NCBI GenBank assembly: GCA_025359885.1
Contig: JANYDG010000122.1
Span: 1 to 64,000, forward strand
Length of the DNA: 64,000 bases
From: Acidobacteriota bacterium
GTDB taxonomy: Bacteria; Acidobacteriota; Terriglobia; Terriglobales; Acidobacteriaceae
Direction: 5' to 3'
Below the pieces are notes generated by a model. That model was not told the origin of the DNA. It saw nothing but the letters and a program-made list of their open reading frames with translations, and made no database searches. The number at the start of each line of letters is the position of its first letter. Position 1 is the stretch's first letter. Shown one piece after another: positions 1,103 to 15,159 of this stretch. Position numbers and translations under genes: made by a program.

Positions 1103-2380
1103 ATGGCTTTGGGCGTACTGAATAACCTTTCCGCACTCTACGCGGAGAACAACCTGAATAGCACCAACAGCAGTCTGCAGGGCGTCCTGCAACAGCTCTC
1201 TTCGGGCTCCAAGATCAACTCGGGCTCCGATGATGCCGCCGGACTGTCGCTGATCAACGGACTTCAGGCCAACTCCACCGCGCTGACTCAATCCGCCACC
1301 AATGCCGCTGAGGGTGTAGGTCTGCTCCAGGTTGCCGATGGTGCTCTCTCGCAAGTGACGAACCTGCTCAACCGTGCCGTTACGCTGGCCACTGAGACCT
1401 CGAACGGTACCCTCAACTCGACCCAGGGGGCTGCGGCCAACCAGGAATATCAGTCGATCCTGTCGGAAATCAACAACATCGGCTCGACCACCACCTACAA
1501 CTCCAACCAGGTCTTTACCGGATCGGCTGCAGGAACCAGCATCTACGTCGGTGACTCCTCGAGCCAGGGCTCGGCCATCGACAACCTGCACTTCGCCTCG
1601 CTCTCCTCAGCCACCGTTGGCGACTCCGGCGGCTCCGTCGTCCAGAGCTCTTCAGGCCAGTTCATTGATCTCTCCAAGGCCGCAGCCAGCGTCCTGACCA
1701 CTGGCGCCCTCGCCGGGGATACCGTCAGCGGCGGCCTCAAGTTCACCATCACCAACGCCGATGGCACCACCCACAACTTCACCACCACGGCAACCACGGT
1801 CTCAGGCCTCGTATCAGAGATCAACAAGGATGGCATCGCCGGCGTAACAGCCAGCCTCACCACCGCAGGCGCTGTCGGCGACCCCGCCGGTGCTACCACA
1901 GCTCTGGCCGACACCGGCATCCTGGTCTCGAATACCAATGCCAGTGTCGCCATTGCCAACGCTGCCGTACTCGATACAACCACCGGTGAAGGCGCAACCG
2001 CTCTCTTCGCTTCCACCAAGTCCACCGAGACCCTCAGCTACCAGATCGGAGCCAACGAACAGTCCACCAACCTCGGCGCAACCGATCTCACCAGCCAGGG
2101 CAACGCGCAGGCCGCCCTGCTCCAGATCAACTCCGCCATCAGCAACGTCGCAGCACAACGCGGATACCTCGGCGCCCAGGTCAATACCCTCAACGCCTTC
2201 TCCTCCGTCGCCACCACCCAGCAGCAGAACGTAACCGGAGCCCAGAACGCAGTTCAGGCCACCGACTATGCCGCTGCAACCACCCAACTCTCCAAATACG
2301 AAATCCTGTCCCAGACCGGCATCTCAGCCCTGGCCCAGGCCAACAGCCTCCAGCAGGAAGTCACCAAGCTGTTGCAGTAA
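1103..2380 (+). CDS. fliC: Flagellin
   Basis: 425 aa; the filament subunit, secreted through the flagellar type III apparatus. The N-terminal D0/D1 helix region is clear (SLQGVLQQLSSGSKINSGSDDAAGLS, then N..EG..LLQ.ADGAL.....L.RA). The C-terminal D1/D0 helices follow the usual pattern (AALLQINSAI, then RGYLGAQVNTL, then ending LQQEVTKLLQ). The centre (about residues 170-330) is a Ser/Thr/Ala-rich variable region expected to be surface exposed. AGGAG lies 9 nt upstream of the ATG. A sigma-28 promoter lies upstream and a strong terminator downstream, so it is probably a single-gene transcript, as usual for flagellin. Confidence 0.95.
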   Translation: MALGVLNNLSALYAENNLNSTNSSLQGVLQQLSSGSKINSGSDDAAGLSLINGLQANSTALTQSATNAAEGVGLLQVADGALSQVTNLLNRAVTLATETSNGTLNSTQGAAANQEYQSILSEINNIGSTTTYNSNQVFTGSAAGTSIYVGDSSSQGSAIDNLHFASLSSATVGDSGGSVVQSSSGQFIDLSKAAASVLTTGALAGDTVSGGLKFTITNADGTTHNFTTTATTVSGLVSEINKDGIAGVTASLTTAGAVGDPAGATTALADTGILVSNTNASVAIANAAVLDTTTGEGATALFASTKSTETLSYQIGANEQSTNLGATDLTSQGNAQAALLQINSAISNVAAQRGYLGAQVNTLNAFSSVATTQQQNVTGAQNAVQATDYAAATTQLSKYEILSQTGISALAQANSLQQEVTKLLQ

Positions 2381-2404
2381 AAACCGACTGCAACCTCAAC
2401 CAGA

Positions 2405-2440
2405 GACGGGGAAGACGGATCGATCACGTCTTCCCCGTTT
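2405..2440 (+). terminator. Rho-independent terminator after fliC
   Basis: A perfect 12-bp stem (ACGGGGAAGACG at 2406-2417 with its complement at 2427-2438), a 9-nt loop, then TTT and a further T run around 2445-2450. Confidence 0.85.
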
Positions 2441-2569
2441 CACGATTTTTCTTCGCCGCAGCTTTTTCAGCGACACCGGGGTTATGTCAGCAATTTTAAA
2501 AGACATTTCTAACGCACCAGCGGCCCGATTTGGCATCTGGACTGCGTTGTTCACCATAACGAGGTTCAG

Positions 2570-3955
2570 ATGGGCACAGTAGGCATTAGCTTCGGTTCAC
2601 CAACTGGCGGCACTGGATTTAACGTGAGCTCAACCGTCAGCCAGATTGTAGCCAATCTCCAGCGCATCGAGAGTCCCTGGAAGACTCAGCTGGGCGCTGC
2701 TCAGGGCCAGGACGCTGCCATTTCCGCCCTCGGCAGCCTGCTTTCAACGCTCTCTACCAATGTCCAGGGGTTAACTGACTTTCAGGGCGTGCTCTCCGGC
2801 AAGCAGGGTTCCAGCTCGGACAACAACGTGCTGACCCTCACCTCTGCCTCCAACACTTCCGTTGCCGGCACCCATTCGATCGTGGTCAATTCTCTCGCCG
2901 CCACCTCGTCCGGCTATCTCGATGCCATCACAAACCCTGCCGACACGCTCTCCGGCTCCATCTCCATTCAGGTCGGGGCAGGTGCCGCACAATCGATTAC
3001 CATCAATTCCACCAACAACACCCTCGCGACTCTCTCAGCTGCCATCAACTCCGGCGGCTACGGGGTGACCGCATCAGTCCTCACCGACACCAATGGCTCG
3101 CGGCTCTCTGTAGTCTCAGCCAGCTCTGGCACCGCCGGCAATCTCACCATCGCCTCTTCGATCTCCGATTCGACCACAAGCACGACTCTGGCTTATCACA
3201 CCGCAACTGTCGGTGCCAACGCCAGCCTGACGGTTGACGGGGTCGGCATCTCGTCTGCCTCAAATACAGTGAGTACCGTCATTCCAGGCATTACCTTTCA
3301 ATTGCTCGCGCCCTCGCCTGTCACCAGTGGCACCGCTGAGCAGGTCCAGGTCCAGATCCTCAATAACAACTCGGCAGTCGTCAGCTCCGTCGGCGTCCTC
3401 GTCACCAACTACAACAACGTCGTCAGCGCCATCAATGCCCAGGAGAAAAACTCCTCGACCGGCACCGCTTCGCCCCTGTTTGGAACCCCCACACTCAACC
3501 TCCTCCAGGAGCAGCTCTTTGGGGCCATCAACTCAACCAACTCCCAGGGCGACATCAAATCGCTGACCCAGCTTGGCATCAGCGTCAACAACGATGGCAC
3601 GCTCACGCTCAACAGCAGCTCCCTCAACAACGAATTGAACAGCGATTACTCCGGCGTCGTCAGCTTCTTCCAAAACAGCGGCAGTTGGGGTACCAGCTTC
3701 TCGACCACCCTCAATAACCTCGGCAATACAGCGGTCAATGGCTCTCTCAGCCTCGCGCTCAAATCCAACAGTTCCATCGAATCCTCCCTCAATCAGAATA
3801 TTTCCAACGAAGAGCGCCTCATCTCAACGCAGCAGATCAGCCTCACACTCGAGCTCACGACCGCCAACGAAATCCTCCAGGCCATCCCTACTAACCTCAA
3901 CGGCGTCAGCGAACTCTATTCCGCCGTCACCGGCTACAGAGCTCCTAGATTCTAG
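2570..3955 (+). CDS. fliD: Flagellar hook-associated protein 2 (filament cap)
   Basis: 461 aa; the filament cap protein that folds flagellin at the tip. The N-terminal FliD_N region is recognisable (SSTVSQIVANLQRIESP, then a coiled helix). The C-terminal FliD_C pattern is also present (LTQLGISVNNDGTLTLNSSSL near 335-355, then S.L...S......QI.N.E.....Q). The middle is Ser/Thr/Asn-rich. AACGAGG precedes the ATG. It lies between fliC and fliS, the usual fliC-fliD-fliS order, and starts about 130 bp after the fliC terminator, so it probably has its own promoter. No clear sigma-28 box was found there. Confidence 0.92.
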   Translation: MGTVGISFGSPTGGTGFNVSSTVSQIVANLQRIESPWKTQLGAAQGQDAAISALGSLLSTLSTNVQGLTDFQGVLSGKQGSSSDNNVLTLTSASNTSVAGTHSIVVNSLAATSSGYLDAITNPADTLSGSISIQVGAGAAQSITINSTNNTLATLSAAINSGGYGVTASVLTDTNGSRLSVVSASSGTAGNLTIASSISDSTTSTTLAYHTATVGANASLTVDGVGISSASNTVSTVIPGITFQLLAPSPVTSGTAEQVQVQILNNNSAVVSSVGVLVTNYNNVVSAINAQEKNSSTGTASPLFGTPTLNLLQEQLFGAINSTNSQGDIKSLTQLGISVNNDGTLTLNSSSLNNELNSDYSGVVSFFQNSGSWGTSFSTTLNNLGNTAVNGSLSLALKSNSSIESSLNQNISNEERLISTQQISLTLELTTANEILQAIPTNLNGVSELYSAVTGYRAPRF

Positions 3956-3969
3956 GCGCGGAGATACTC

Positions 3970-4407
3970 ATGTCCAGTTATCAGCAGCACGCGCTTGACG
4001 GTGCCTCGCCCGTCGATCTGGTCGTCGCGCTCTACGATGGTGTCATCCGATTTCTTTATGCGGCCATTGCCGCCGTCGAGCGTGGAGACGTCAGCGGCCG
4101 CCGAATCGCCGTCAAGCGAGCACTGGCCATCCTTATCCACCTCCAGGCACGACTTCGTATGGATATAGGCGGTCGTCCCGCCCAGGTCCTCAGCGAATTC
4201 TACGCATCCATGTTTGCCCTGATCCTTCAGGCTTCCCTTGGCGCAGACGCCAAACGCTTTGAAGAGGTAATCGGCTGTGTTCGCAGTGTCCGCGATGCCT
4301 GGCGACAGGTCGCCGCCGATCCCACCGTTGGCGCAACCGCTCCCCGCATCTCCCACTTTTCGCAACCCGCGCCGGAAACAGATCAGCCCGCCCGCTGGAC
4401 TGCATGA
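3970..4407 (+). CDS. fliS: Flagellar secretion chaperone FliS
   Basis: 145 aa; the cytosolic chaperone that binds the flagellin C-terminus before export. Family features are LVVALYDGVIRFLYAAIAAVERGD (the LY.G.i.fl..A motif) and a following four-helix-bundle pattern with L..L...G......L..FY......L. The last 30 residues are Pro/Ala-rich and not conserved. It starts 14 nt after the fliD stop with GGCGCGGAG upstream, so it is co-transcribed with fliD. Confidence 0.88.
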   Translation: MSSYQQHALDGASPVDLVVALYDGVIRFLYAAIAAVERGDVSGRRIAVKRALAILIHLQARLRMDIGGRPAQVLSEFYASMFALILQASLGADAKRFEEVIGCVRSVRDAWRQVAADPTVGATAPRISHFSQPAPETDQPARWTA

Positions 4408-4426
4408 CCGCCCCTCGCAACCGCGC

Positions 4427-6193
4427 TTATCTCGTTACAGAGAGCTCTTCCTCCAGCAACTGCTTTTCATGCAGCCCGGCATAGTACCCGCCCTTCGCAA
4501 GCAATTCGTTATGCGTCCCCAGCTCCAGGATTCGCCCCTCCGACAACACTGCAATCTGATCCGCCTCGCGCACCGTCGAGATCCGGTGCGAAATCAAAAT
4601 CGTCGTGCAGTCATTTGCGTACTCCCTTAGACCCTGCAATATCCGCTCTTCTGTATAGGTGTCTACGCTCGCCAGGGCATCATCCAAAATAAGGATGCGC
4701 GGTCGCCTCAACAGTGCGCGTGCAATCGAAGTTCGCTGCTTCTGCCCGCCCGAAAGCGTCACGCCGCGCTCGCCAACCATCGTTTCAAAACCCTGCGGAA
4801 ACTCCTTAAACTCCCGCCGTATATGTGCCGCCTCCGCAGCCTCCAGCATCTCGTCCGCCGTCGCCTCAGGTGCGCCGAAACACAGATTTTCGCGAATCGT
4901 TTCGCTGAAGAGAAACGTCTCCTGCGGCACCACGCCGATATTCGACCGCAGCACCTTCAGCGGATATTCCCGGATCGGCCGCCCATCGACCAACAGTGTG
5001 TTCTCCTGCACATCCAGCAGGCGCGGAATCAGCCCGATCAGCGTCGATTTCCCCGACCCCGTCGGCCCGACTATCGCAAGCGTCGACCCCGCCGGAACCC
5101 GCAGGTTGATGTTCTTCAGCACCTGCGTCTCGCCGTAGCTAAAGCTTAGCCCGCGAAACTCGATCTCTCCCTGCAGCACGGTTCCCTCGGGAATCGTCTT
5201 GTCTGCCCCGGCGTCATCAATCTTCGGTTCGGCCCGTAAAATCTCGTCAATCCGCTTGATGCTCGCCGTTCCGCGCTGGAAAAGATTGATCACCCAGCCA
5301 ACCGCAATGATCGGAAACGTCAGCAGAATCATGTACGTGTTGAACGCGACAAAACTGCCTACATCAATCCTGTGCTGCAAGACCAGCCGTCCGCCCGCCA
5401 GCAGCGTAATCACCAGAGCAACGCCCAGCACAAACTCGAGCGTCGGCCAAAGCATGCCCATCAGTTGAACGAGCCTTAGCGCCCTGCCGATGTACTGCTG
5501 ATTGGCCTTTTCAAAGGAATCAATCTGCGCCTCTTCCCGCGCAAACGCCCTGATCAGTCGCGCCCCGGAAAAATTCTCCTGGGCATGCGAAGTAATCTCT
5601 GAAAAACTCGCCTGAATCCGCTCAAACCGCTCGTGAATCCGTGCCCCGAAGTACTGCACGAGTATCGACGCAATCGGCATCGGTGCCAGCGCCACCAGCG
5701 TCAGCCAGGGCGATATCCGCAGCAGAAAATACAACGCAAATGCCGAAAACAAGATCGTATTCGCGCTGTACATGATCGCCGGCCCCAGCAACTGGCGCAC
5801 CGCGTTCAAGTCGTTGGTCAGCCGGGCCATGATGTCGCCCGTCCGGTTTCGCTGATAGTACCCCGAATCCTGCCGCTCCAGTTGTTTGAACAGGTCATTG
5901 CGCAGGTCAAACTCAATCTCCCGCGAAATGCCGATCAGGATCCAGCGCGAGGCATATAAAAACACGCCCTTCAGCAGCGCCACACCCACCAGCAGACCTG
6001 CATAAAACAGAATCTTCTGCCGCATCGCGATCGAGTCCAGACCCAGCCGGTTCAGATCATTGACTGCCGCTTCAATCACCTTGGGGAACAGCACCCAGAT
6101 CGCATTGGTCGCCGTCAGGGCCAGCGTGCCCCACAGGTACCCCCAGCGGTACCGAGCCATGTACCGGAACAGCGGCTTCAAATCTCGCAACAT
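4427..6193 (-). CDS. ABC exporter, fused membrane and ATPase domains (MsbA/MdlB-like)
   Basis: 588 aa; a half-transporter expected to work as a homodimer or with a partner in the inner membrane. Residues 1-320 form a six-helix ABC membrane domain. Residues 345-588 form the ATPase: Walker A GPTGSGKST near 375, Q-loop VPQETFLFSETIRENL, signature LSGGQKQRTSIARAL, Walker B ILILDDALASVD and H-loop ILISHRIST. All catalytic motifs are intact. The substrate cannot be read from the sequence; lipid or drug export is the usual role of this family. It ends 19 nt from the convergent fliS. Confidence 0.9.
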   Translation of the reverse strand: MLRDLKPLFRYMARYRWGYLWGTLALTATNAIWVLFPKVIEAAVNDLNRLGLDSIAMRQKILFYAGLLVGVALLKGVFLYASRWILIGISREIEFDLRNDLFKQLERQDSGYYQRNRTGDIMARLTNDLNAVRQLLGPAIMYSANTILFSAFALYFLLRISPWLTLVALAPMPIASILVQYFGARIHERFERIQASFSEITSHAQENFSGARLIRAFAREEAQIDSFEKANQQYIGRALRLVQLMGMLWPTLEFVLGVALVITLLAGGRLVLQHRIDVGSFVAFNTYMILLTFPIIAVGWVINLFQRGTASIKRIDEILRAEPKIDDAGADKTIPEGTVLQGEIEFRGLSFSYGETQVLKNINLRVPAGSTLAIVGPTGSGKSTLIGLIPRLLDVQENTLLVDGRPIREYPLKVLRSNIGVVPQETFLFSETIRENLCFGAPEATADEMLEAAEAAHIRREFKEFPQGFETMVGERGVTLSGGQKQRTSIARALLRRPRILILDDALASVDTYTEERILQGLREYANDCTTILISHRISTVREADQIAVLSEGRILELGTHNELLAKGGYYAGLHEKQLLEEELSVTR

Positions 6194-6443
6194 GTCTTAA
6201 TTGTACTGGTCAACTTTCCTCGTGCGTCGCCTCGCTCCGGGTAGGGAAGAAGTCATAGGTCAACTCCATCAGGCGGCCGCGCCTGTAAGTCTGCCGACCC
6301 TCGCAGAATAGGGCTTTCAAAAATGGGCCGCATTGCTCAGTCACCGGGCCTCGGAAAACCTGAAAATCCGCTTTGGACGCATCATGTAACTTTGTGAGGC
6401 GCGCAGCATCATAAACAAAAGAGCGAAAGTAGCCTGAACAGTC
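6194..6443. other. Intergenic region between ABC exporter and msrB
   Basis: A 250-bp divergent gap. A minus-strand open frame (6210 to about 6430) has plausible protein composition and ends 16 nt before the exporter ATG, but it has no convincing start and continues antisense into msrB. No gene is called. Confidence 0.4.
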
Positions 6444-7058
6444 ATGTTTGAAACCAATATCAGCCAAGACCCACGAAACCACGACTCGCGCAAAATCACC
6501 CGCCGCGTCTTCTTCGCCAGCGGAACTGCAGCCATCGTCACGGCCGGCGCTGCATGGCTTTTCAGAACGCCCGGCATCGAAGCCAGCGCCACAATTCATG
6601 GCACGCCCGGCCAGGTTATTATTGTCAACTTCAGCCCTGACGGTGCCCGCCTCAGCGTCGAGATGCTTCCTAAAATAGTCAAAACCGACGGCGAATGGTA
6701 TCGCCAACTCGGCGCGAACTCATTTGGCATCGTCCGCCAGGCAGACACTGAAATGCCTTTCTCCGGCATCACCTGGAAGGAGCACGCCCCCGGCCTCTAC
6801 CGCTGCCTGTGCTGCGAAACCGCGCTCTTCAGTTCAAAGACAAAGTTTGAATCCGGCACCGGATGGCCCAGCTTCTGGGCACCTATCGCTACAGAAAATA
6901 TCGTGGAAAAGCCTGACCTCTCCCTGGGCGTCGAACGAACAGAGGTGCAATGCGCACGCTGTGAAGCTCACCTCGGCCACGTCTTCTCTGATGGTCCACA
7001 GCCCACCGGCCTGCGCTACTGTATGAATTCGGCCTCAATGCATTTCGTCAAAACCTAG
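6444..7058 (+). CDS. msrB: Peptide-methionine (R)-S-oxide reductase, Tat-exported
   Basis: 204 aa. MsrB reduces methionine-R-sulfoxide in oxidised proteins. The N-terminus carries a twin-arginine signal (ITRRVFFASG near 17-26, then a hydrophobic stretch), so this copy probably acts in the periplasm. The MsrB domain spans about 70-204: zinc-binding CLCC and CARC pairs, the GTGWPSF motif and the catalytic Cys in RYCMNSASMHF (Cys193). Cytosolic MsrB is about 140 aa; the extra length here is the signal and a linker. There is no fused MsrA. The reducing partner is not encoded nearby. Confidence 0.9.
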   Translation: MFETNISQDPRNHDSRKITRRVFFASGTAAIVTAGAAWLFRTPGIEASATIHGTPGQVIIVNFSPDGARLSVEMLPKIVKTDGEWYRQLGANSFGIVRQADTEMPFSGITWKEHAPGLYRCLCCETALFSSKTKFESGTGWPSFWAPIATENIVEKPDLSLGVERTEVQCARCEAHLGHVFSDGPQPTGLRYCMNSASMHFVKT

Positions 7059-7065
7059 GTCAGAT

Positions 7066-7662
7066 TTACGGGTAAAGTCGCGACCTCGCCCATCCATCCC
7101 CATCCCGCGTGAACAGAAAGCGGTCATGCAGCCGGTGTGCTCCATCCATCCAGAACTCAATTCGCTCTGCCCGTACACAATACCCACGCCAGTACTCGGG
7201 TCTCGGAATCATCCCTGGGTGCGCCTCGCCGAACTCCAGCCAGCGCGCCTCGAGTTCCGCGCGGTTGGCAAGCACCCGACTCTGCTCTGAAACCGCCGCA
7301 CCAATTTGGCTGGCCCGTGATCGGCTGTGAAAGTACCTGTCGCTCGCCTCCGTCGAAAGCTCCGTCACCGCGCCCTCCACACGAACCTGGCGGCGCAGCG
7401 ACTTCCAGTGAAAGCACAGCGCCGCCCGCGGATTCCCAGCCAACTGCTCACCCTTCCGGCTTGAAGCGTTCGTGAAAAAACAGAATCGCTCCTCCCCAAC
7501 GGGCTTCGCCAGCACCATCCTCACCGTCGGCCAGCCGTCCGCCGTCGTCGTTGCCAGCGCTACTGCGTTGGGGTCGTTCGGCTCGCTCTTTTGAGCCTCA
7601 GCAAACCACGCATCAAACAGTTCAATTGGGTCTTCTGCCTCGACAACTCGCCCTGCACTCAT
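7066..7662 (-). CDS. pdxH: Pyridoxamine 5'-phosphate oxidase
   Basis: 198 aa, usual family length. It oxidises pyridoxine- or pyridoxamine-5'-phosphate to pyridoxal phosphate using FMN. Characteristic stretches are A.ALATTTADGWPTVRMVLAK, F.TN.SSRKG..L..NP.AAL.F.W..L.RQVR.EG, the SRASQIGA segment and RP.YW.GY.V...RIEFW, and the C-terminus ending in R.RLYP. It is convergent with msrB (7 nt between stops). Confidence 0.93.
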   Translation of the reverse strand: MSAGRVVEAEDPIELFDAWFAEAQKSEPNDPNAVALATTTADGWPTVRMVLAKPVGEERFCFFTNASSRKGEQLAGNPRAALCFHWKSLRRQVRVEGAVTELSTEASDRYFHSRSRASQIGAAVSEQSRVLANRAELEARWLEFGEAHPGMIPRPEYWRGYCVRAERIEFWMDGAHRLHDRFLFTRDGDGWARSRLYP

Positions 7663-7740
7663 CTCAAAATTCTAACCGCCAAAACGCTGCTCCATGGTCC
7701 CCAGTCCATCCAAATATTGGCCCTGCGATAAACTTGGGAG

Positions 7741-8151
7741 ATGTATACCCGTATCGACCGTGCTCATAGGGCCATTCCCGTCATCCTCGGAGTCCTGACC
7801 CTCCTCTGTGGCACCCTGGCCCTCGCCTGGGATGTTTATCCGGCGCTCTTTTCACCAGCCGCTCACATCTTCTTTGCTACCGCGGCCCTGGCGCTCATCG
7901 CCATCGCCTATCTCATCTATCAGACCGTGCACCGTCCCACCAGACAGGAGTGGCTCAAGGCCATCCTGCTCGCCATCGCCTTCCTCTTCTGGGCGGCCAA
8001 TCAGTTCTGGCCAAACCCACAGCAGGCCACCCTCTTCAATGACATCGCCATCGCGCTCTTCGTCCTTGATGTTTTCCTCGTGATGGTCGGCTGGCCTGCC
8101 ACTTCCCCTGACGAATCCTTTGCCGAAACCTACGTCGAACCCGAAAAATAG
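7741..8151 (+). CDS. Small four-helix membrane protein, function unknown
   Basis: 136 aa with four predicted membrane helices (about 13-32, 40-61, 72-91 and 99-117) and a short acidic C-terminal tail. No family or catalytic motif was recognised. The ATG follows TTGGGAG. It diverges from pdxH and appears to be a lone gene. Confidence 0.6.
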   Translation: MYTRIDRAHRAIPVILGVLTLLCGTLALAWDVYPALFSPAAHIFFATAALALIAIAYLIYQTVHRPTRQEWLKAILLAIAFLFWAANQFWPNPQQATLFNDIAIALFVLDVFLVMVGWPATSPDESFAETYVEPEK

Positions 8152-8260
8152 CGGACAGGCCGCCGTTCCGCAAACCAGAGCGGGCGGAAGATTCAGCGTG
8201 ACACCACCTGAATCAACCGCCCGTCATTAACGCTGGCCTTGAATTACAACAGAACTTTGC

Positions 8261-10837
8261 CTACTCTCGTACCCGCAACTCCTGCGTCCCCGCCAAATCT
8301 GGCAAGACAATATGGAGCGCGTGTGTAGCCGCATCGTACCGTGTCTTTAAGGTTTCCGTTGCCCCTGAAACCGTCGCCACAGCGCGCGGTGAGTTCCACC
8401 CAAATACTACGACTTCCATCGTCTTCCACCACGGAGTGTAACTCCCGGTGCGCGCTCCAAACTCCACGCTGAGCTCGCGGCCCTGCACCTGGCAGCTAAA
8501 CGACTGCCGCAAAAACTCGCCTTTCTCAAATTTGAACGTGTGCCCGTCGTCCAGATAAAGCGATCCGCCGCACTTTGAGCCCGCCTTGGCCCCTTTGTCC
8601 GTCCAGTCCGGATACACCCGCAGCTCCAGCGGTCCCTGCGGAGTTTCATCCGTACTCTGCACCAGCGGCTGCATTGGCACCACGCTGCCCGCCTTCACAA
8701 ATACCGGCAGCGTGTCGAGCCCGGGGTGAATCACCACCGGCGGCGGAAACTTGCTCAGCGATTCGCCAGCAGCAATCGTGTTTGAAATCTCCACAATCGA
8801 CGGCTGTCCCGGCGACCGCTCCGCTTTCGCACCCGTCCAGAAGTCATACCACTCGCCCTCGGGATACGCCACCGTGTACCCCTCTGGCATCTCCCCAAAC
8901 GGCGGCGGCGCCACCAGCAGGCTTGCCCCAAACATGAATTCCGTATCCACTCCGTCAAAATCATTGGGAAATTCCAGAAACAGCGGCCTGACCATCGGCA
9001 ATCCCGTCCGATGCGCCTCCTCCGCCAGCGTGTAAATGTAGGGCAAAAGCCGGTAGCGCGTCTCAATATACCGTCGACGAATTGCCTCCTGTTCCGGGCC
9101 ATGCGCCCAGACTTCCTGCGGCATCGAACCAATCGTCGAATGGTCACGATACATCGGGTTGAATGCGCCGACCTCAATCCACCGCGTCAGCAAATCGGGA
9201 GCAGCCGACCCGCCAAATCATCCAATATCGTCCCCCACCATCGAAATTCCGCTCAGGCCCAAATTCAGCAGCATCTGCGTTCCCAGCCGCAGTTGGCTCC
9301 AGGTTGAGGAGTTATCTCCCGTCCACGTAAACCCAAACCGCTGGCCGCCCGCGTAGGTAGCCCGCGTCAGCACAAACGGCCGTTCATCCGGTCGCAGCTT
9401 GAACAGCCCCTCAAACGTGGCCCGCTCGTTCTGCATCCCAACGATGTTGTGAATCTCGGCATGCGTCGCCGTGCGCGAAGCAAACCCCGGTTCCTCAATC
9501 CGGTGAATGTTGTCGAGAGGCATCGTCATCCCCGGCCCGTCAAACACCGACGGCTCGTTCATGTCATTCCAGAATCCCGAAACCCCATCCTTCACAAACT
9601 CCGCATACAGCCCGCCCCACCACTTGCGAGTCTCGGCCCTCGTAAAGTCCGGGAAGACCGCCGGCCCCGGCCACACTGTACCCACAAACTCGCTTCCGTC
9701 TGCTCGTTTTACAAAGTGGTCGCCGGCATGTCCTGTCTCGTAGGGCATGTATCCTTGCCCGGCCACATGCGCCACATGCAGATCGGTAATCGTCACCAGG
9801 TGCAGATGCTCCTTTTTCAGGTCTGACACCAGCCCAGGAAAACCCGGAAAATTCACCGGGTCTACCGTAAACGGCCGGTTCCGGTACTGGTAATCAATGT
9901 CCAAATAGACTGCGTCCGCGGGAATCCGGTCTGCCCGCAGTTTGTCCGCCACGACCCGCAGCATCGACTCAGGCGTGTAGCTGTACCTCGATTGCTGAAA
10001 GCCCAGTGCCCACATCGGCGGCATCGGTGGCGTGCCCGTCAGATAAGCGTAGCCCTCCACCACCTGCTTCGGCGTCGGTCCGTAGATCACGTAGTAGTTC
10101 AGCGGCCCGCCCTCCGCGCCAAATGAAAAACTTTCCCGGGATTGCTTGCCAAAATCAAACCAGGTACGGAAAGTGTTGTCGAGAAAGAGGCCATAGCTGC
10201 GCCCTCCGGTCATGCCCAGGAAAAAGGGGATGCTTTTGTAAAACGGATCGCCAGCCTCCTCCACCCCATGGTCGCGGTTCCATAACTCGTAGGCTTGGCC
10301 GCGCCGGTCAAATGTACCGGTCTTGTCGCCCAGACCGTAGAAATGCTCGTCCCCCGGCATCTGTTTGTGCACCGTGAATCCGCCATTCCGGAATTCAGCG
10401 GGATTGTCGAGCGCGTCGTTGCAGATATGGTTGCCGTTCAAATCCAGAACGAGGATGCGCAGTGGATTCCGCTCCACACGCACCTCGACCGCCGTCGTTT
10501 TGAAGCCAACAAATCCGGGGTCTTCCGTTGCTTTCACGTCGACTGACTGCTCCCTCGGCCCGGAAAGGACGGCCCAGGAAGCATCCTCTGGGAGCGTTTC
10601 GCCGGGGGCAATCCTCACCCGCACAATATCGTCGCGAAGGGCTGTAATGCGAATCGTGACCAGGCCCGACTGAACTCCCGCCTGCACTGCGATCCCATCC
10701 CGCAACGGCTTTGAAGCCGTGACCTCTTCGACGGCGATACGCGACGGAGAGGCGGCGGCGGCCAAATCCGAATAGGCTCCGACGACGAGCAAAAAGCACA
10801 AAAGGGCAGGGAAGCGACGGGTAGCCAAGGGTTTCAT
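8261..10837 (-). pseudogene. GH31 alpha-glucosidase interrupted by an in-frame TGA
   Basis: An 859-codon frame for a secreted family 31 glycoside hydrolase, broken only by TGA at 9218-9220 (codon 540). Upstream are a signal peptide (ALLCFLLVVGAYSDLAAA), a galactose-mutarotase-like N-domain and the (beta/alpha)8 barrel with the nucleophile in WNDMNEPS (Asp425) and the acid/base in TGDNSS (Asp508). Downstream, in the same frame, are LLTRWIEVGAFNPMYRDH and the C-terminal beta domains. The family normally has GADIGGF at the break; here it reads GDDIG-stop-FGG, so one GGA-to-TGA change explains it. The truncated product would lack the last barrel strands. A sequencing error or readthrough cannot be excluded. 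Confidence 0.85.
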
Positions 10838-10960
10838 CAGTTGCCTTTCAAAACGTCAAATCATATCAAGTTCAACGCTTCGCGCCTATAGAAATTCCTC
10901 AATGCAATCCACGCCATCGTTGGCCAGAGTCATTTCTATGCCGTTTTATTCACCAGGAAA

Positions 10961-10997
10961 AAGCGCGCGCTCAGACGATCAGTCCGGGCGCGCGCTT
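10961..10997 (-). terminator. Rho-independent terminator after the secreted hypothetical gene
   Basis: A 10-bp GC-rich stem (10961-10970 with 10988-10997). On the minus strand it is followed by TTTTT, 24 nt past the stop at 11021. Confidence 0.8.
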
Positions 10998-11020
10998 CTT
11001 TTCTCATTAGGCTTCGGTTC

Positions 11021-12124
11021 CTACCGTTGCAACAGCTTATACCCGGCAGGCACTTCAAAATGAGAAGCATCAATCGGCGCTCCAGAAAAATTCGACGACT
11101 TGCTCTGCGACTCCATCAGAATCGCGCTCGTCGTCGGCTTGCCGCCTGCATCTCCGCCCGGGGGCGGCGTATCCTGCTCCTTCTTCTTTCCAAATCCGCC
11201 CAGCCCAAAGTGGCTCGACAGTGCCCCCGCCAACCCCTGCTTGGCCATGTCGCCCCCGCTTGGCGCGTTCCCGGCGCTGTCTGGCGGTAGCGGCGCCTCT
11301 GAGGCCGCAGGCAGCGGCTTGCCGTCGGTCGTCGTGCCCATCCGCATCACCGTCATCACCGGAACGCCCTTCAGTTTCTGCATCTCCTTGACCATGTCCG
11401 CCATGCCCTGCGCCGCGCCCGGATTTGCCGCAAACATACCGCTCATATCCATGCCGCCGCCAGCTCGCGAACCCATACTTCCCATCTTCGTCGCCATCCG
11501 CATATAAAACGCGCTGACCTCCGCATACCCCGGGATCTCCGGCACCATCCACATATCGTTCGTGATGGCCATCGTCCCCGTCTGCTGGCTCTTCTTGTCG
11601 GTAGCGTTCATCATCATCGTCATGATCGCTTCCTTCGTCGCCAGACCGCTCACCTGCTTCTCCACACCCGTCTGACGAACGTGCACTTCGTAGTTCATCT
11701 GAACCTTATCCGCATCCGGATCGGCCTTGGGCGCAGGATGCGCAGCCTGCTGCTTTTCTGCGTCTTTCTGGGCCTTTGCCATCTGGTCCCGCATCTGTTG
11801 AAAAGTCTCAACCGAATAGGTCCGCTTCTCGTTGTCGATCTGCGTAATCGTCTCCTTGTCCAGATCGATAATCTCAGTCGTGTCAGCCGAAACCCGGGCC
11901 AACCGATTGTCTTTCAGATAGATGGTCGTGATTACCGGCTCGCCCATCTTGCGCGCCCGCGAACTGAAGGCACCCGCCATCTTCATCATGCTCAACATCG
12001 AGCCGCCAGTCACCTGCGTTGACTCCTGGTAGCTGAAGTCCGCAAAAAGGGAAGTGGGCGCGGCCAATGCCAGCGCGAGTACTGTCAATTTCTGTGCATG
12101 AGCGAAACGCATCGAATACCTCAA
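11021..12124 (-). CDS. Secreted Met-rich protein, function unknown
   Basis: 367 aa with a Sec signal peptide (KLTVLALALAAPTSLFA). The mature part begins with a beta-rich domain (YLKDNRLARV, then IDLDKETITQIDNEKRTY), resembling outer-membrane-associated proteins that track lipoprotein or metal stress, but no family was firmly recognised. The centre is unusually rich in Met and Gly (MTMMMNATD, MGSMGSRAGGGMDMSGM). This is followed by a Pro/Gly-rich low-complexity stretch (about 280-330) and a short conserved-looking end (FEVPAGYKLL). It is a single gene with its own terminator. The Met clusters could bind metal, but that is only a guess. Confidence 0.6.
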   Translation of the reverse strand: MRYSMRFAHAQKLTVLALALAAPTSLFADFSYQESTQVTGGSMLSMMKMAGAFSSRARKMGEPVITTIYLKDNRLARVSADTTEIIDLDKETITQIDNEKRTYSVETFQQMRDQMAKAQKDAEKQQAAHPAPKADPDADKVQMNYEVHVRQTGVEKQVSGLATKEAIMTMMMNATDKKSQQTGTMAITNDMWMVPEIPGYAEVSAFYMRMATKMGSMGSRAGGGMDMSGMFAANPGAAQGMADMVKEMQKLKGVPVMTVMRMGTTTDGKPLPAASEAPLPPDSAGNAPSGGDMAKQGLAGALSSHFGLGGFGKKKEQDTPPPGGDAGGKPTTSAILMESQSKSSNFSGAPIDASHFEVPAGYKLLQR

Positions 12125-12274
12125 ACTCTAACGGGGGATTGGACTCCGGATGGCGTCTTGCAGTGGCTGAAACGCAACCCGGCCTGAGTCTAATTACCCT
12201 GACTCGCTAAGTCAAAAGGAATCAACCAAGTCACCTGTTTCAAGGTTTCAGACTGGCAAGGGGCGAACCACGCA

Positions 12275-14713
12275 TTACGTCGGTGTCCGCAAAAGTAGAT
12301 ACCCGCCCGTAAGCCCAAACAGAATATCCGGCGACCAGGCTGCCACCGCCGATGGCAGATAATTGACACTCCCCATCGCATCAAACAACCCGGCAATCAC
12401 CCAATATCCCAGCCCAATCCCAATCGCCGCCGCCACCCCGGTCAGCGAACCGCGCCGCCCCATCGACAGCGCAAACGGTATCGCCAGCACCGCCATCACG
12501 ATCGTCACCATCGGGTACGCCAGCTTGTCATACAACTGCACCCGCAGCCGAATCGTGTCAAACCCGCTCTGTTGCAGGTCGCTAATATACCGCTGCAACT
12601 GCCCAAAATTCATCTCCTGCGACTGCAGGCTCTCCTTCTTGAAGTACCCCGGCTCCTCGTGCACCTCCGCAAAGCTCGCCTGCTGAAACTCCCGGAAGCC
12701 CGTCACATTCGCCCCCTGCATCGTCCGTTCCCAGCCATTCTCAAAGCTCCACATCCGCTGCCGCGCATCCCACACTGCCCGCCCCGCAAAAATACGCTTC
12801 GAAAGCGAAAACGTCACCGGGTCAAACTCAAACAGGCTCAGGTTCGCAAACGCATTCTGGTCCGGGTCAAAGAACTGGTAGTAGAAAATCCGCCCCGGCT
12901 CCCCCGCCCTTTGTTGCCCGAAAATCCACTTCTGGTCAGGATTCAAGGTCGTCTGCGCCGGCCGCCCCTTGATAATGTTCCGCAGCGCCTCCTGCTTGCG
13001 ATTCGCCTGCGGCAGGTAGTATTGGTCAAAGGCAAACAGCCCCCCCGCCAAAATCCCCGAAATCACCAGCACCGGAATCACCAGCCGGTAGATGCTGATC
13101 CCCGTCGCCTTCATCGCAATCAGCTCGCTCGACCGGTTCAGAACCCCAAACGTCACCAGCACCCCAATCAGCACTCCCAACGGAGTCATCTGGTACAGCA
13201 TCCTCGGCGCCAGATTGAGCAGGTACGCCCCAATCGTCGTCACCCCGGGATGGTTCCGCCAGATATCCGGTACCAGCTCAAAATACGTAAACACCAGCAT
13301 CAACAGCACCAGCCCCAGCAGGACCATCAAAAACGTCTGCATGAACTCCCGCAGCACATACTCATCCAAAATCAGCGGAAACCCCCTCCGCTTGAATCGA
13401 TGAAACGTATGCGTCAGCGGAGGATGAAACCGCCGCCGCCACCGCTCCTTCGCCGCCGTCTGCCAGCCCTTCTCCGCACTGCGCTCCGCCTCCAGGCGCA
13501 TCTCTTCCTCGGTCAATGCGCGCGCCGTCGGCCGCCGCGTAAACCAGCCCGTAATCGCGCTTAGCACCTGGCCCCCGCTCGCCATCTGGCTCAGCAAAAA
13601 CAAGCCAGCCGCGGCAAACATCACATTCGCCAGCCAAACCCCCGCCACCGCCGGCAGCCGCCCCTGCTTTGCCCACGCAATCCCAAAATTCGACAGCACG
13701 TAATACACCAGCACCAGCAAAATCGTAAAAATAAATCCGCTGCTCTTACCTCCGCGCCGCGAAGCAGTCCCCAGCGGCACCCCAATCAGCATCAGCACCA
13801 GGCACGCCACCGGGAAAGCCAGCCGCCGGTTCAGCTCAATCAGGTAGTGCTTTCCCGCCGCATCCCCCGGCTTCGCCTCTTCAATCTTCTGCCACAGTTG
13901 CCGGTTCCCCATCGCAAAGATCGGCGTGTCCATCCGACCCAGGTGAATGTCGCTCTGCGGATTAAACGCCAGCGGCCGATCCGTCGTCGCAAACGTAGAA
14001 ATGTTGTACTGCCCCGCTTGGCTGGAGATTCCAGTCCCGCCATCCCGCCCCGATTCATGTTCTGCCCCGTTGCGCAGCCGGATCAGCAGCCCCTGTCCCC
14101 GGTTCTCCCCCACATCCTCCGCCACCGTCGCAGATTCCGCCGTCGTGATTCGCGGCGCCGTCGGGTCGCTCACGTCGGCAATGAAAAGCTGCCGCCAGTT
14201 TGAAACCCCCGTCCCAGCGCGCACATCCTGCACATAAATAACCGTGTTTTTGAAGTCCTCATAGAACACCCGCGGCTGAATCTCAAACGACGCCTGCGAA
14301 GTCTCCAGCTCCCGCTGCATATCCAAAATCGCCTGATTCGCCCGCGGCGCAACATACAGCGAATTCACCAGCCCCAGCCCCGTCCCGATAAACGCCACCA
14401 CCGACGCCACTCTGACGAAATACCAGATGCCAAACCCCGACGACCGCATCGCCGTAATCTCAGAGTCCGCAGCCAGCCGGCTCAGTCCCAGCAGCACCCC
14501 CACCAGCACCGCCATCGGAATCGTGACCAGGAACGTGTTCGGCAGCGTAAACAGAAAAATCTGCGCCACAGCCACCAGGCTGGAACTGTTCCGGACCACC
14601 ATCTCCAGAATGTGCCCCAGGTCCTTCATGAACAAAATAAACGTAAACAGCGCACACCCAATCAACGAGTGCGAAGCAATCTCCCCGAAAATGTACCGAC
14701 TAAGAATCTTCAC
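12275..14713 (-). CDS. LPS export permease, LptF-LptG fusion
   Basis: 812 aa, about twice the length of LptF or LptG. Two complete YjgP/YjgQ permease units are visible. The first starts MKILSRYIFGEIASHSL and has the SEITAMRSSG motif near 90. The second starts near residue 450 (DEYVLREFMQTFLMVLLG) with the SSELIAMKATGIS motif. Each unit has three N-terminal helices, a periplasmic jelly-roll-like domain (with PDQ..IF..... in the second) and three C-terminal helices. LptF and LptG with LptB form the inner-membrane ABC complex that drives LPS to the outer membrane. A one-chain heterodimer is the simplest reading. The ATG is used; no lptB lies nearby. Confidence 0.9.
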   Translation of the reverse strand: MKILSRYIFGEIASHSLIGCALFTFILFMKDLGHILEMVVRNSSSLVAVAQIFLFTLPNTFLVTIPMAVLVGVLLGLSRLAADSEITAMRSSGFGIWYFVRVASVVAFIGTGLGLVNSLYVAPRANQAILDMQRELETSQASFEIQPRVFYEDFKNTVIYVQDVRAGTGVSNWRQLFIADVSDPTAPRITTAESATVAEDVGENRGQGLLIRLRNGAEHESGRDGGTGISSQAGQYNISTFATTDRPLAFNPQSDIHLGRMDTPIFAMGNRQLWQKIEEAKPGDAAGKHYLIELNRRLAFPVACLVLMLIGVPLGTASRRGGKSSGFIFTILLVLVYYVLSNFGIAWAKQGRLPAVAGVWLANVMFAAAGLFLLSQMASGGQVLSAITGWFTRRPTARALTEEEMRLEAERSAEKGWQTAAKERWRRRFHPPLTHTFHRFKRRGFPLILDEYVLREFMQTFLMVLLGLVLLMLVFTYFELVPDIWRNHPGVTTIGAYLLNLAPRMLYQMTPLGVLIGVLVTFGVLNRSSELIAMKATGISIYRLVIPVLVISGILAGGLFAFDQYYLPQANRKQEALRNIIKGRPAQTTLNPDQKWIFGQQRAGEPGRIFYYQFFDPDQNAFANLSLFEFDPVTFSLSKRIFAGRAVWDARQRMWSFENGWERTMQGANVTGFREFQQASFAEVHEEPGYFKKESLQSQEMNFGQLQRYISDLQQSGFDTIRLRVQLYDKLAYPMVTIVMAVLAIPFALSMGRRGSLTGVAAAIGIGLGYWVIAGLFDAMGSVNYLPSAVAAWSPDILFGLTGGYLLLRTPT

Positions 14714-14871
14714 AAATAAGAGCCTGCAGTGAGTCTACAGCCCCACCCCAAACCCCATATTCTCCACCCCCGAATAAACTGACTCGTCATCCTGAACGCA
14801 GTGAATGACCTGCTCTTGCTTAGCTCGTGCCGTTGCTTTGCTCGTGCCGTTGCCCTTGCCTTTTTTGGGTC

Positions 14872-14970
14872 GTCATTCCCGCAGGGAATCTGCTGTCGCC
14901 CAGATCTGAAACGAACCACGGAGGGTGCCCCCGGCGGGTGCCCCCGGTCCCTGGCCTTTGGGGACCGGGG
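14872..14970 (+). repeat. Composite palindromic intergenic repeat, copy 1
   Basis: GTCATTCCC-GCA-GGGAATCTGC (a hairpin), then two copies of GGGTGCCCCC separated by a few bases, then GGTCCC-N8-GGGGACC (a second hairpin). The same order recurs inverted at 26240-26317. Confidence 0.7.
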
Positions 14971-15159
14971 ATTCCGAAACGATGTCAGGCGGCTCGAACC
15001 CTGCCGATAATTACCCTCGATCAGCGCACAATCGAAATACCAACAGCTTCAACCAGGCCGTTGCCCCTGTTTTTTCATCCTCAGCAGGTCTATGCTGTAG
15101 CCGTCGGCAACTTGGCTGCAAAACATCGCAATCTGCAATAATGATCAAAAAAAACAAGT

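Follow-up and report, generated by a model that had tools for sequence, protein, structure and literature searches.

A single in-frame TGA interrupts a GH31 alpha-glucosidase-type gene in a draft Acidobacteriota genome

Structure of the interrupted GH31 gene

The window analysed here is a stretch of 64,000 nucleotides from a draft Acidobacteriota genome. Its minus strand carries a GH31 gene at 8261-10837 (Table 1). The region forms a single frame with one internal stop only, a TGA in the minus-strand context GAC GAT ATT GGA TGA TTT GGC GGG, and the uninterrupted frame of a GH31 gene is not found. The two parts lie in the same frame and GH31 Pfam models match both of them. Each half gives Pfam matches above the cut-off, and together these cover the GH31 barrel and C-terminal domains.

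The first half matches Gal_mutarotas_2 and positions 1-263 of the GH31 TIM-barrel profile. The second half continues the same barrel model at positions 268-328 and then matches the GH31 C-terminal domain and DUF5110. Because consecutive stretches of one barrel model lie on either side of the stop, this is one interrupted gene rather than two neighbours. The original prediction of a lone in-frame TGA splitting a GH31 gene is thereby confirmed. A probable signal peptide was read by eye in the first half. The active-site residues that had been placed before the stop were also found there, Asp425 within WNDMNEP and Asp508 within TGDNSS. By motif they are predicted to be the catalytic nucleophile and acid/base, and the available text of PMC3499471 agrees on the DMNE signature around the GH31 nucleophile and on the roles of the two Asp residues. 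Two further GH31 genes in the genome (C55 and C32) are open and more distant, at 28-29% identity.

Table 1. Coordinates of the interrupted gene and neighbouring features in the window
Feature	Position	Strand	Remark
In-frame TGA, codon 540	9218..9220	-	Relatives have Gly at this position
GH31 first half, 539 codons	9221..10837	-	N-terminal mutarotase-like domain, most of the TIM barrel, Asp425 and Asp508
GH31 second half, 318 codons and normal stop	8261..9217	-	TIM barrel end, GH31 C-terminal domain, DUF5110
LptF/LptG-type permease	12278..14713	-	97% identical to G012
ABC transporter	4430..6193	-	96% identical to G012
Flagellin, FliD and FliS genes	1103..4407	+	Clustered
365-aa frame	11027..12121	-	80% identity in G012; no Pfam match

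Codon 540 in related genes

All 15 genomes searched within the genus, including that of the window, contain a GH31 match, and 80 loci came from a wider search of genome contigs, with titles mostly of Acidobacteriota, plus Proteobacteria and others. Of 105 loci in total, all but L016 cover codon 540; of these 104, the window itself accounts for two (TGA) and other loci for 102. A Gly codon is present in all 102 non-self rows (GGC in 49, GGA in 30, GGG in 12 and GGT in 11) and a stop in none, as expected from the earlier suggestion that the family has Gly here; these rows are not independent, as the pairs L003/L022, L004/L023, L005/L024 and L006/L025 each represent one gene, entered twice by construction, and some genome contig records, such as L005 and L039, seem to be repeats of genus genomes. 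The contig search may omit records of the window's own genome, so no conclusion about conspecifics follows from finding the stop nowhere else. A stop kept in orthologues, which would mark conserved programmed readthrough, was thus found in none of the non-self rows. A single change converts GGA to TGA, and two are needed from the GGG of the closest relative, G012.

The nearest relative and the gene neighbourhood

G012 belongs to the same genus and carries an intact GH31 orthologue on its contig 2 (locus L022), with 87.5% protein identity and the same gene order. The two genes share all three GH31 regions. However, the G012 gene is one unbroken frame with a Gly codon where the window has TGA. 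Nine G012 genes match the window at an identity of at least 60%, and an internal stop occurs only in the GH31 gene and in none of the other eight. Two stops were counted in the GH31 comparison, in which the G012 query began at an upstream start (alignment from 10876). The second of these must precede the window's ATG, because 8261-10837 holds one internal stop only.

Colinearity between G012 and the window extends over about 3312-14972. It stops on G012 contig 2 at about position 15000 of the window, and beyond about 15 kb the ORFs of the contig 2 stretch 40000-119999 have no match in the window. The flagellin, FliD and FliS genes adjoin the GH31 neighbourhood, and their order in G012 is identical. 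A second split gene at 1-2380 was considered and rejected, as the G012 ORF is over-long and the flagellin start is the ATG at 1103. The LptF/LptG-type permease and the ABC transporter are well above most genes between or beside them (80-87%) in identity to G012.

Selection on the two halves

Comparison of the GH31 gene with its G012 orthologue gave a dN/dS of 0.082 before the stop (535 codons) and 0.095 after it (318 codons). A comparison with G014 was dropped because its dS value for the second half (-1) indicated saturation. Amino-acid changes were polarised with four outgroup sequences. Before the stop, 18 fell on the window branch and 21 on the G012 branch, with 25 unpolarised; the corresponding numbers after the stop were 13, 10 and 15. 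The gene therefore shows no excess of amino-acid change on the window branch relative to G012, nor was a second lesion found in that comparison. Only four indel columns separate the two genes, all near the N-terminus, and the sequence around the stop aligns normally.

These counts allow the gene to have been free of constraint for no more than about 4% of the branch (3.8-4.5% according to the dS used; one-sided 95% bound, 31 vs 31), a rough bound given a dS of 0.7-0.9 and distant outgroups. Judged from the substitution pattern, both halves still look selected. Selected halves, the lack of excess change and the lack of a second lesion imply that the stop is either very young or a consensus error. 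Presence of the stop in one genome only, together with little decay, is the pattern of a recent pseudogene. The pattern of selection in the second half does not speak for readthrough, since it is expected under mutation, error and readthrough alike.

Decoding machinery

SelA was not found in the genome search, every SelB match in the genome fell below the cut-off, and the sole tRNA-Sec match above the cut-off was identified by ARAGORN as tRNA-Ser(tga). Insertion of selenocysteine at the UGA is unsupported on these grounds, in a genome with a completeness of 94.79%. A UCA anticodon is absent from all 39 tRNA matches (ARAGORN named 37 of them, and two partial ones, inspected by eye, read TGG and GAC), which leaves a suppressor tRNA unsupported; at this completeness, a missed tRNA gene is possible.

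The tRNA-Trp is normal with a 5-bp anticodon stem. According to the available text of PMC13092985, a tRNA-Trp with a 4-bp anticodon stem allows UGA to be read as Trp. The stem in the window's genome differs in being 5 bp long, and that mechanism is thus not indicated. RF2 is present in the genome, and TGA terminates 69 of 198 ORFs of at least 300 aa in the window and 400 kb of the same genome. With TGA in use as a stop, RF2 kept, no UCA anticodon among the tRNA matches and a tRNA-Trp stem of 5 bp, genome-wide reassignment of UGA is unsupported.

Interpretation of the stop

The TGA is most likely an ordinary isolated nonsense codon, produced by mutation or by a base-call error. Our preferred explanation, to which we assign a probability of roughly 0.6, is that a GH31 alpha-glucosidase-type gene, functional until very recently, took a single nonsense substitution at a conserved Gly codon. 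That the base itself is real is something we infer. Translation would end after residue 539, within the TIM barrel, and the product would lack the barrel end and the C-terminal domains. To judge from the domains lost, such a truncated product is probably non-functional. The assembly is, however, a draft of 125 contigs in which nothing shows the base to be real, and an intact gene with one wrong base in the assembly would be expected to show the same selection on its second half.

The assembly may instead be wrong at this base, through a base-call, damage or consensus error, with the organism's gene intact; this possibility has to be taken seriously. A single base is affected in one genome only, no second lesion accompanies it, both halves are under intact selection, the assembly is a draft, and the other eight matched genes have no internal stop. 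The site itself nevertheless gives no positive sign of error, and its flanking sequence aligns normally. Real mutation is preferred to error by judgement only, as the analyses here fit both. Recent loss and sequencing error, both raised in the original prediction, are favoured by a stop confined to one genome, by the selected halves and by the lack of other lesions. Its third option does not fare as well, since neither the machinery searches nor the conservation of the stop support programmed readthrough or recoding.

Readthrough of the UGA at a low or programmed level, yielding some full-length enzyme, is improbable, though some leakage at a low level may occur. The second half looks selected, and the available text of PMC7918605 names UGA as the stop that leaks in E. 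coli and B. subtilis. Yet the stop is not conserved, special decoding machinery was not found in the genome searches, and the residue inserted would replace a Gly that is conserved in all rows. Here UGA is also followed by U, which is not known to be the leakiest context. More doubtful still is a version in which readthrough is efficient enough to be useful, with one gene giving both a short and a complete exported glycosidase at a tuned ratio that would be confined to this lineage. The least credible proposal is a two-chain enzyme whose halves would be translated independently, the second after re-initiation, and then assemble: PDB 7xoi is a GH31 alpha-glucosidase of N- and C-terminal polypeptides and a 310-aa frame with a TTG start lies closely after the stop (9193-8261), but the first chain of 7xoi matches the query up to residue 434 and the second from residue 460, placing the junction elsewhere, whereas the cut here falls inside the barrel at a conserved Gly and none of the relatives in the 102 non-self rows is split at the site.

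The window's stop belongs among the cases described in the available text of PMC7918605. There, in-frame stops in bacterial genes are reported as widespread and mostly short-lived, and many are argued to be tolerated. The likeness lies in a gene of low dN/dS that carries one in-frame stop. The survey, however, kept stops common to at least two species to avoid artefacts, and the window's stop is in a single genome. A substantial fraction of raw cases is expected to be artefacts in the same text.

In itself the case matters little; it illustrates that a premature stop in a draft genome can mimic recoding. That impression is dispelled by examining a close relative, selection along the branch and the decoding machinery. 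If the nonsense substitution is real, one GH31 enzyme, probably an exported one, was recently lost from this strain; the two distant GH31 genes remain open.

Other in-gene stops in the genome

Across 464 kb, made up of the window and another 400 kb of its genome, a scan by codon statistics picked out 68 candidate in-gene stops; an earlier, differently filtered scan had given 45. The scan is a weak control rather than a pseudogene count, as antisense frames were also picked up. Homology tests covered the window's own stop and a few others, and the remaining 62 of the 68 were called by codon statistics only. Several of the top candidates, inspected by eye, resemble the end of a gene behind which a new start lies in frame. 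The halves of five unclear candidates were run separately against Pfam. None of the five had one family on both sides of the stop, and three had a Pfam match of any kind in at least one half.
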